The notes under the pieces were generated by a model. It was given only the letters and a program-made list of their open reading frames with translations, ran no database searches and was not told the DNA's origin. From a virus, in the IMG/VR virus record IMGVR_UViG_3300021085_000037, positions 1 to 57,145 of that record: a DNA stretch of 57,145 nt, one strand, 5' to 3'. Within the stretch, counting starts at the first letter, position 1; every line of letters begins with the position of its first letter. This document shows, piece by piece, positions 576 through 56,426 of the stretch. The translations under genes were made by a program, and so were the position numbers.

Positions 576-699
576 ATACTCTGATGAGCAACACTGAAAG
601 GTGGCGAAACAATGATGGGAGTTGAATGGTGATTAGCTAACATACCAACTTAATGAGAGACAAACAAGATACCAAACTCTCTCCTATCATTGTCAGTAT
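576..699 (+). ncRNA. Type I hammerhead self-cleaving ribozyme
   Basis: All conserved hammerhead parts are present in order. Stem I 5' strand is ATACT (576-580). The core CTGATGA is at 581-587. Stem II runs 588-605: GC and CAC pair with GTG and GC around loop TGAAAG, with a bulged AA at 590-591. The core GAAA is at 606-609. Stem III CAATGATGGGAG (610-621) pairs with CTCCTATCATTG (681-692) over 12 bp with one G-U. The cleavage triplet is GTC (692-694) and stem I 3' strand is AGTAT (695-699). The open helix is stem I, which defines type I. Predicted cleavage is after C694, leaving a 25-nt A-rich leader on the next mRNA. The stem III loop is long (622-680) and may fold further (AGAG 656-659 with CTCT 677-680). 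The region is not coding. Confidence 0.9.
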
Positions 700-719
700 A
701 AATAAAATAAAATAAAACT

Positions 720-1439
720 ATGCCTAATTATGTATATGCTGGGATAACATTAGATGAAGTTTCAGCTGATCAAAAAAAGATTCTCAAAAAAATAGAAGAG
801 AAAGGATCGTTCTGTAATTATTACATAACAATGCCTGAAGAATTAAAAAATATTGTAATTGGTAAAACAATTATAAATGGAAAAGAATATAAACTATATA
901 GACAAGTAGATGGTAAAGATGTAGGAATTTCTGAAAGAGAAAAGAAAATGTTACTTGCAGTCTATGGTGCAACAAACTGGTATGACTTTAGAATGAATGC
1001 CTTTGATACTAAATGGGGAGACTGCGAACTTGAAGTAGATATTGATGGTGGTCAGCTGAATTTTAATACTGCTTGGTCACCAGTTGGTGACAAAATATTA
1101 AATATGTTTGCAGAAGACTTTCCTAATTTTAATTACTGGTACGAAGAAGAAACTGGATGGGGAGGTGAAAGAGATTATGAGAAAGGTAAAGTTGTAAGAG
1201 ATATGTTTTATGAAGAACCTGAATGGGAAGAAACAGAATATGAGATAGGTGATTCAGTATATACTATAACTGAACTTGAAAACGATCATCCAAACTATGA
1301 AGATGGTAAAGGATTCTATGTAGATTATTCTCACGAGTTTGCTGGTAAAACATTAGAAGAAGCAAAGAAGTATATTGATGAGCAACATAAAGAATGGATG
1401 AAGACAAGAGGAAAATCATTTGAAGAACTAATAAAATAG
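720..1439 (+). CDS. Api92-like / YubB-type (DUF1281) protein
   Basis: The 239-residue product carries the pattern of the Api92-like ferredoxin-fold family: an N-terminal helical part, then a conserved strand with 'TKWGDCELEVD', a 'FNTAWSPVGDKIL' segment and 'FPNFNYWYEEETGWGGE'. These proteins are common in phages and plasmids but have no settled biochemical role. The ATG lies 25 nt downstream of the predicted ribozyme cleavage site, so this gene would be translated from the 5'-hydroxyl cleavage product or from the uncleaved read-through mRNA. Family assignment is by motif recognition; the function is unknown. Confidence 0.8.
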   Translation: MPNYVYAGITLDEVSADQKKILKKIEEKGSFCNYYITMPEELKNIVIGKTIINGKEYKLYRQVDGKDVGISEREKKMLLAVYGATNWYDFRMNAFDTKWGDCELEVDIDGGQLNFNTAWSPVGDKILNMFAEDFPNFNYWYEEETGWGGERDYEKGKVVRDMFYEEPEWEETEYEIGDSVYTITELENDHPNYEDGKGFYVDYSHEFAGKTLEEAKKYIDEQHKEWMKTRGKSFEELIK

Positions 1440-10022: not shown

Positions 10023-10370
10023 ATGGCTTACAAAGACAAGAAAGACCAGGCAGCATGTTCTAAAAAGCACTATGAAGCTAATAAAGAAAACATTAAGCGT
10101 AGGTCTTCTACCCGTAATAAATTACAACGAGATAAAAATATAGCTTATGTTAATGAGATAAAAAGAATAACTCCTTGTGTTGATTGTGGATGTGTTAATC
10201 CAGTACTGTTAGAGTTTGATCATGTTAGGGGAGAAAAAGAGAAGTGCATATCTGATATGGTTAGGGGAGCATATAGTATTGATACCATACAGAAGGAGAT
10301 AGATAAATGTGAAGTAAGATGTGCTAATTGTCATAGACTAATAACACATCAAAGGAGAATAAATAAGTAG
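10023..10370 (+). CDS. HNH endonuclease-like protein
   Basis: The 115-residue product has an N-terminal Lys/Arg-rich helix (about 1-40) and a zinc-binding HNH core: CVDC (Cys52, Cys55), 'LEFDHVRG' with Asp66-His67, and 'CEVRCANCHRLITHQRR' with Cys100, Cys103 and His104. Free-standing phage HNH proteins are often mobile (homing) nucleases; some help packaging. The last base of its TAG stop is also the first base of the tRNA, an unusual junction fitting an invasion or co-acquisition next to the tRNA. Confidence 0.85.
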   Translation: MAYKDKKDQAACSKKHYEANKENIKRRSSTRNKLQRDKNIAYVNEIKRITPCVDCGCVNPVLLEFDHVRGEKEKCISDMVRGAYSIDTIQKEIDKCEVRCANCHRLITHQRRINK

Positions 10371-10443
10371 GACGAGTAGCTCAACTGGACAGAGCAACAA
10401 CCTTCTAAGTTGTAGGTTGAAGGTTCGAGTCCTTCCTCGTTCA
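10370..10443 (+). tRNA. tRNA-Arg (UCU anticodon)
   Basis: The cloverleaf is complete. Acceptor GGACGAG (10370-10376) pairs with CTCGTTC (10436-10442) with one G-U. The D stem is GCTC/GAGC, the anticodon stem ACAAC/GTTGT closes loop CTTCTAA (anticodon TCT), and the T stem GAAGG/CCTTC closes loop TTCGAGT. The discriminator base is A and CCA is not encoded. It reads AGA/AGG, which dominate the arginine codons in the AT-rich genes here, so it may supplement the host pool. Confidence 0.93.
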
Positions 10444-10456
10444 CAAAACAAAAGAG

Positions 10457-54713: not shown

Positions 54714-56363
54714 CTAAGCTCTTTTATGTGTTACGATTGCATTGGTAGTTAAGATAGTTGTAGCTACACTAATAGCATTAAGCAATGCACTCTTAGTAAC
54801 CTTAGCTGGATCAATGATCCCCATCTCAAACATATCTCCATACTCTTTCTTTACAACATCATAACCTTTATTGTTTACTGGTTGCTCAGGCTCGTCATCA
54901 ACTGTACCTAACATCTCAGGAGTATATATCTCTGACATTATTTCCTTTTCATCCAGTCCAGCATTCTTTAGTATTTGTTGTAGAGGTGCTCTCAATGCTT
55001 CACGCATCATCATCTCAGCAACCATATCCTCATCAATATGTTCATGAGAGTTATCTTCACAACTACATCCGAAGTGTCTTGCAAAATCATATAACAATAA
55101 TCCACCACCAGGAACAATACCTTCCTGTAGTGCGGAACGCACTGCACAGACAGAGTCATCGACTCTGTCGAATTTTTCTTTCTGCTCTATATCAGATGTA
55201 GCACCTACATAGATACAACCAATCCCTCCAACTAAAGAAGCTATTCTCTCATTGATAAAGTCTTTCTCATGTTTAGCTGATGTATTTTCTTGTTGAACTC
55301 GTAGCTCCGCTACTCTCTTTTGAGTTTCCTCAGTTACATCTCCATCTTTAATTATAACAGTATTGTCTTTACCTACAATAATTTTATCTGCATGTCCAAG
55401 ATCTGCTGGAGTAATAATAGATAAATCATCTCCAGTCTTTTCAGAAAAGTATTTAGCTCCAGTTGCAAAAGCAATATCTTGCATTAACTCATGAGTCTTA
55501 TATCCAAATGATGGAGGTAAGATATTACAAAACTTTAATCCATTACGAGCTACGTTAGCTGCAAGAGTATTAATAACATTACCAGAACATGTTCCTATGA
55601 TAAGTAACTTCTCTCCTGAATTGATTATTGGTTTAAGTATATTCTCAATCTGAAGTATATTATTAATCTCAGTATCGCATACTAAGATATTTACATCATC
55701 CATGATGCACTCATCTTTTCTTTGATCATTAATAAACAAAGGAGAAGTATAACCTCTATCAACTCTAATACCATTGGTAACCTCTGAATAAGTCTTATCA
55801 GTTTGAGATCTCTCAACTGTAACAAGTCCATCTTTACCAACCTTCTTATATGCGTCAGCAATTATCTCTCCAAGATCATAGTCGTTGTTAGCACTAATAG
55901 AAGCAATATGATATAACATATTATCAGTAACATCGATGGATCTTTCTTTAATGTTTTTAAGAATAACTTCACTATCATATCTAATTCCGTTTATTACTTC
56001 GAAGACATTGTGATATGGTTTGATCCATTTAAGTCCAGCTTGAACAATAGCTTCTGTTAATACAATTGCAGTGGTAGTTCCGTCACCAGCTACATTAGCT
56101 GTTTTCTCCGATGCTTGTTTAAGCATACGAACAGCAAGGTTCTCAATTGGATCATCAAGATGAATTGACTTAGCTACAGTAACTCCATCTTTAGTTACCG
56201 TTAATCCTTGTAGGTGTTCGGTTGATTCTATAAGTACTGTCTGTCCCCTTGGGCCTAATGTACTCTTTACTGCTTTTGAAATTTTAGTGATTCCGCTGAT
56301 TAGCTTCTCACGAGCCTCGCTATCGAAAGTAAGGTCTTTTGGAATGTATCCCTGTTTATCCAT
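54714..56363 (-). CDS. groEL: Phage chaperonin GroEL
   Basis: I chose ATG at 56363 (MDKQGYIPKDLTFDSEAREK); the frame continues upstream through the promoter. The 549-residue product has the nucleotide-binding motifs 'TKDGVTVAKSI' (Asp52-equivalent), 'AGDGTTTAIVL' (Asp87-equivalent) and 'FDRVDDSVCAVRSALQEGIV' with 'PGGG' (Asp398-equivalent), and the ending 'DPAKVTKSALLNAISVATTI'. The bacterial GGM-repeat tail is missing and a Cys/His-rich insert (CSCEDNSHEHIDEDM) replaces part of the C-terminal equatorial domain. It folds proteins with GroES; likely clients are phage virion proteins. Confidence 0.93.
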   Translation of the reverse strand: MDKQGYIPKDLTFDSEAREKLISGITKISKAVKSTLGPRGQTVLIESTEHLQGLTVTKDGVTVAKSIHLDDPIENLAVRMLKQASEKTANVAGDGTTTAIVLTEAIVQAGLKWIKPYHNVFEVINGIRYDSEVILKNIKERSIDVTDNMLYHIASISANNDYDLGEIIADAYKKVGKDGLVTVERSQTDKTYSEVTNGIRVDRGYTSPLFINDQRKDECIMDDVNILVCDTEINNILQIENILKPIINSGEKLLIIGTCSGNVINTLAANVARNGLKFCNILPPSFGYKTHELMQDIAFATGAKYFSEKTGDDLSIITPADLGHADKIIVGKDNTVIIKDGDVTEETQKRVAELRVQQENTSAKHEKDFINERIASLVGGIGCIYVGATSDIEQKEKFDRVDDSVCAVRSALQEGIVPGGGLLLYDFARHFGCSCEDNSHEHIDEDMVAEMMMREALRAPLQQILKNAGLDEKEIMSEIYTPEMLGTVDDEPEQPVNNKGYDVVKKEYGDMFEMGIIDPAKVTKSALLNAISVATTILTTNAIVTHKRA

Positions 56364-56397
56364 TGATGTTAAATTTAAATTAAAGTATATTGTTTGG

Positions 56398-56426
56398 CAA
56401 AGATATAAAAAAAAATATAATGTCAA
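56398..56426 (-). promoter_or_regulatory. Bacteroidota-type promoter for groEL
   Basis: Minus-strand TTG (56426-56424), 18 nt, then TATCTTTG (56405-56398). The -33 TTG is inside CGACATATTGACAT, a variant of the repeated element, so a repressor could bind across it. Confidence 0.7.

Follow-up and report, generated by a model that had tools for sequence, protein, structure and literature searches.

A type I hammerhead ribozyme at a phage gene junction and its regular placement in related phages and in some Flavobacteriales chromosomes

What does a self-cleaving ribozyme do between two genes of a phage? Why bacteria should have such ribozymes close to phage genes is described as unknown even in recent work (PMC10085705). 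Hammerheads flanking prophage genes were reported in 2011 for A. tumefaciens, A. caulinodans and C. scindens (Perreault et al., PMC3088659); that paper demonstrated cleavage of prophage hammerheads both in vitro and in E. coli, and found 4 out of 18 consensus-conforming hammerheads to be inactive. We met the same question in positions 1 to 57,145 of the IMG/VR virus record IMGVR_UViG_3300021085_000037, a stretch of 57,145 nt that is called the window below. A sequence-only reading had placed a complete type I hammerhead at 576-699, with stem I starting right behind the stop codon of the upstream gene and an A-rich leader following the predicted cleavage site.

Both the element and its placement held up when the junction was read directly (Table 1). 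The core (CUGANGA, GAAA and an NUH triplet, here GUC or GTC in DNA, at the cleavage site, 692-694) and three helices are intact in type I topology: loops cap stems II and III, and stem I is left open. Stems I, II and III comprise 5, 5 (bulged) and 13 pairs. A stem III of 12 bp had been proposed; the long paired stem stands and its length is corrected to 13, one of them G-U, because the core A15.1-U16.1 pair had been omitted from the earlier count. The idea that the stem III loop might be structured was not borne out, since its degree of structure does not exceed that of shuffled sequence (z +0.74) and none of the fetched loci contains a convincing match to it. The window element is less ideal than most: stem II is bulged (a form also present in L003_1523, L087, L141 and L145), the stem III loop is long, and folding without constraint reaches an energy 1.8-2.8 kcal/mol lower than that of the hammerhead fold. 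Across the elements analyzed, the hammerhead fold is the minimum free energy (MFE) fold in 65 of 85. Fast hammerhead cleavage needs a tertiary contact between stems I and II. As stem I is short and open in the window and inspection identified no partner in it for such a contact, cleavage may be slow here.

Table 1. Features at the hammerhead junction of the window
Feature	Position	Strand	Remark
Upstream gene, 90 aa	303-575	+	stop TAA 573-575 abuts stem I
Stem I, 5' strand (ATACT)	576-580	+	pairs with AGTAT 695-699
Core CUGAUGA (DNA CTGATGA)	581-587	+	no variation at C, U, G, A, G and A among 58 relatives
Stem II hairpin, GC-(AA bulge)-CAC, loop UGAAAG, GUG-GC	588-605	+	direct reading
Core GAAA, final A = A15.1	606-609	+	direct reading
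Stem III, 5' strand	609-621	+	13 pairs with 681-693
Stem III loop, 59 nt	622-680	+	structure not above chance; no convincing match elsewhere
Stem III, 3' strand; U16.1 = 693	681-693	+	pairs with 609-621
Predicted cleavage, C17 (694) / A (695)	694-695	+	position predicted from hammerhead consensus
Stem I, 3' strand (695-699), and A-rich 25-nt leader of downstream mRNA	695-719	+	sequence reading; leaders of relatives
Downstream gene, 239 aa, DUF1281_C (Api92-like) domain	720-1439	+	ATG at 720

The two flanking genes are co-oriented. Simple scans for promoters and terminators gave nothing resembling either at the junction; their nearest matches lie at 2035-2066 and 4509. Judged by gene content, both are probably early genes. 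Pfam and PHROG searches gave no match for the upstream gene. Using the primase of the window as query we collected 80 related viral loci; the upstream gene added three and the downstream gene one, and a pattern scan contributed 61 viral contig stretches and 12 bacterial genome stretches, all 12 labelled Flavobacteriales or Bacteroidetes. Relatives of the window phage infect Flavobacteriales. DNA similar to that around the window was absent from the named phage collection.

The sequence-only reading had proposed scoring the region with the Rfam hammerhead type I model and had named a missing hit above threshold as evidence against the ribozyme; the outcome depended on the model. At the gathering score, Rfam returned no hammerhead in the window or in eight relatives, and below threshold the window yields nothing but a weak and misplaced type III match (14.4 bits). 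RF03152 (RAGATH-1-hammerhead) and RF00008 (Hammerhead_3) have the core in common with the present set, and three L016 elements match them below threshold at 21-27 bits; the RAGATH-1 model differs in its upstream hairpin and one-pair stem II, RF00008 in being open at stem III, and neither gathering score is reached. A covariance model trained on 58 relatives, with the window element left out, scored that element at 41.9 bits (E 8.6e-10, 1.28 Mb), and all of its matches in the primase loci are placed on the gene strand. A strict type I descriptor run on the window and relatives gave 40 matches (some are duplicates, and a few whose inserts are very long are probably false) vs. 0 in the Markov control run alongside. 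The missing Rfam score is a matter of the threshold of those models and not of a defining biochemical feature; the Rfam thresholds miss this hammerhead set.

Pairing in related phages, whose loss had been named as evidence against the ribozyme, is kept. In the alignment of relatives it reaches 97.8%, with 283 double changes vs. 72 in shuffles. This count is partly circular because the elements were picked by motif, and two less circular checks were therefore made. At helix positions left free by the search pattern, pairing is 94% in outer stem I, 91% in stem II and 98% in stem III, vs. 63%, 52% and 47% when partners are shuffled. In locus L003, whose primase is 90% identical, a hammerhead occupies the same gene junction as in the window; its stems II and III differ in sequence and are still paired. 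Orthologues of the upstream gene occur in L003, L010/L084 and L085, and L010/L084 keep this gene with a different gene behind it and no hammerhead there. Relatives of the downstream gene also follow hammerheads in L003, L104 and L110, and the single related locus recovered with that gene retains GTCAGTAT at the corresponding place of its contig end. L003 carries three further copies upstream of the place matching the window element. The window shows one hammerhead and its contig begins 575 bp upstream of it, so the genome may hold more copies beyond the contig start.

Could the window copy be a decayed or inactive hammerhead? The unmet Rfam thresholds and the non-optimal fold would agree with this, and a decayed-looking copy is present in the Flavobacterium elemo phages: MT497078.1 and 67 other elemo records contain one hammerhead-like match (L180:3960-4023, 40.1 bits) whose stem II pairs poorly, perhaps a decayed copy, which makes the cultured elemo phages a weak test system. 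In MW202828.1, the closest named phage by primase, no hammerhead match was found. Decay or inactivity of the window copy is nevertheless rather improbable, since its core bases, its three helices and a 13-bp stem III are all intact, the independent model recognizes it with the E-value given above, and junction and strand are conserved.

The relatives show a regular layout. We found about 96 distinct elements in phages, with a maximum of four in one genome; almost all are type I and have stem I conserved. In 84 of them an ORF stop falls between -23 and +15 nt relative to stem I, and in 80 an ATG lies 15-40 nt past the cleavage site. The full arrangement of stop, ribozyme, 15-40 nt and ATG is found in 70 of 96 elements, vs. 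1.9% of positions drawn at random on the same strand and 1 of 96 in the opposite-strand comparison. Leaders of relatives are 50% A and 6% G and mostly unstructured (median MFE 0), with a lower bound of about 18 nt and a mode of 23-27 nt, values that fit the space required by an initiating 30S subunit. At least one to four copies were found in 28 of 34 whole records; these counts are lower bounds, as the model search of whole records missed the window's own element, probably because of its long stem III. The same search showed no copy in the remaining 6 of 34 related records, so the hammerhead is not essential to the lineage. In G002, four copies lie about 0.4-0.5 kb apart with small genes between them.

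The same layout of stop, ribozyme, about 25 nt and ATG is present in some Flavobacteriales chromosomes, between the gene for a TonB-dependent receptor and that for a small CxxCH lipoprotein (L154:5186-5247, L148:2640-2699 and L159-L178). The covariance model trained on phage relatives, which contains no host sequence, matched 29 of 298 genomes of the order Flavobacteriales and 1 of 396 genomes sampled across the phylum, the latter being the query genome itself. In 19 of 20 fetched host loci the descriptor puts the hammerhead behind a long ORF, at a distance of 0-9 nt, and mostly 22-27 nt ahead of the lipoprotein gene; in both loci examined with Pfam, the gene in front of the hammerhead encodes a TonB-dependent receptor. 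Pairs of the host loci also covary in an alignment fitted to the model.

The closeness of stop codon and stem I allows a regulatory reading. The sequence-only reading had suggested that ribosomes at the stop might open stem I and so uncouple or tune expression. In the version considered here, a ribosome terminating at 573-575 would cover stem I and the core, so that heavy upstream translation would block cleavage and keep the message joined and cutting would occur when ribosomes are sparse. The stop lies directly ahead of stem I in the window and 0-3 nt ahead of it in 42 of 96 elements, and the short distance in the host copies points the same way. However, the other elements have their stops anywhere between a position within the ribozyme and one about 15 nt ahead of it, which argues that exact gating is not a general requirement; compact genomes by themselves would put stops there, and ribosomes leave quickly relative to the time available for later cleavage. 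We consider such a switch unlikely.

It might also be asked whether the unit is a selfish or recombination module that spreads among gene borders by duplication and recombination and brings no benefit in expression. Three of the four copies in L121/L183 are identical, the genes downstream of hammerheads are very diverse (70 clusters among 103 proteins), and copies of one genome tend to share stem I (24 of 45 pairs identical vs. 7.8 expected, from 21 multi-copy loci such as L016 and L121); stem II identity within genomes of these multi-copy loci shows no excess over expectation. A purely selfish origin is quite unlikely, though, given that the spacing to stop and ATG is exact, that stems II and III change while pairing stays, and that a copy is fixed at one chromosomal junction across many Flavobacteriales. 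Stem I is the sole helix joining the ribozyme to its downstream product, and its sharing within genomes also raises the thought that a single-gene RNA, once excised, might be religated end to end or joined to another such RNA, so that circular or reshuffled phage mRNAs would arise. The simplest explanation of the sharing is concerted evolution or shared descent; religation is the least simple, and we rate it as highly improbable.

We favor, with a probability of about 0.7, constitutive co-transcriptional cutting of polycistronic RNA by the type I hammerhead at the gene junction. According to this model the ribozyme would cut the transcript during its synthesis. The upstream mRNA would then have the ribozyme body at its 3' end (stems II and III with a 2',3'-cyclic phosphate), and this body should shield that end; the downstream mRNA would begin with a 5'-OH and the 25-nt A-rich unstructured leader, just enough for 30S loading. 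Neighbouring genes could in this way be uncoupled in translation, decay and dosage without added promoters or terminators. The model draws on the intact core and helices, the match to the relatives' model, the shared junction in L003, covariation, gene-strand placement and the regular layout, and also on the frequency of the MFE fold, the Flavobacteriales operon and the precedents in prophages and haloviruses. The short open stem I, the bulged stem II, the 59-nt loop, the fold above the minimum, the related records with no copy and the inactive precedents count against it.

How far do these precedents reach? In PMC3088659, prophage hammerheads likewise lie between co-oriented phage genes, several per genome and with varied neighbours, and splitting of long transcripts was proposed for them; coding-strand hammerheads between co-oriented phage genes, several per genome, are what we find in the window's lineage. 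The present set differs in its host groups, in being nearly all type I with stem I conserved, and in its constant layout of stop, hammerhead, about 25 nt and ATG, which does not appear to have been reported there for prophage hammerheads. For HHphage of haloviruses HF1/HF2, the same source maps an mRNA 5' end within 3 nt of the hammerhead cleavage site; HHphage resembles the window element in lying shortly upstream of a gene (13 nt, an early gene), but it belongs to an archaeal virus, and its core is a variant that carries a 2-nt insertion and is adapted to high salt (PMC3088659). Our literature search, with most subscription papers and preprints outside its coverage, found neither the Flavobacteriales set nor the TonB-receptor operon described. 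The type of ribozyme is an established one; its fixed order of stop, ribozyme, 25 nt and start, which recurs in a bacterial operon, appears not to have been described. A large, regular set with fixed stop and start distances, together with a conserved copy in a host operon, offers a direct test of polycistronic mRNA cutting.

Some minor observations were made on leaders and on other parts of the window. The leader AGUAUCAUAAGAUACC occurs in L006, L013, L017, L064, L091, L114 and L119, where after cleavage the stem I 3' strand could refold as a 5' hairpin (GUAUC AUAA GAUAC, -3.9 kcal/mol) that is absent in the window leader; such a hairpin might prevent reversal of the cleavage or guard the 5' end. 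The window also encodes a tRNA-Arg (TCT) at 10370-10444 (+), within a + strand gene block, and a phage GroEL-like chaperonin at 54714-56426 (-) that matches PHROG 5725 with an E-value of 5.6e-133.
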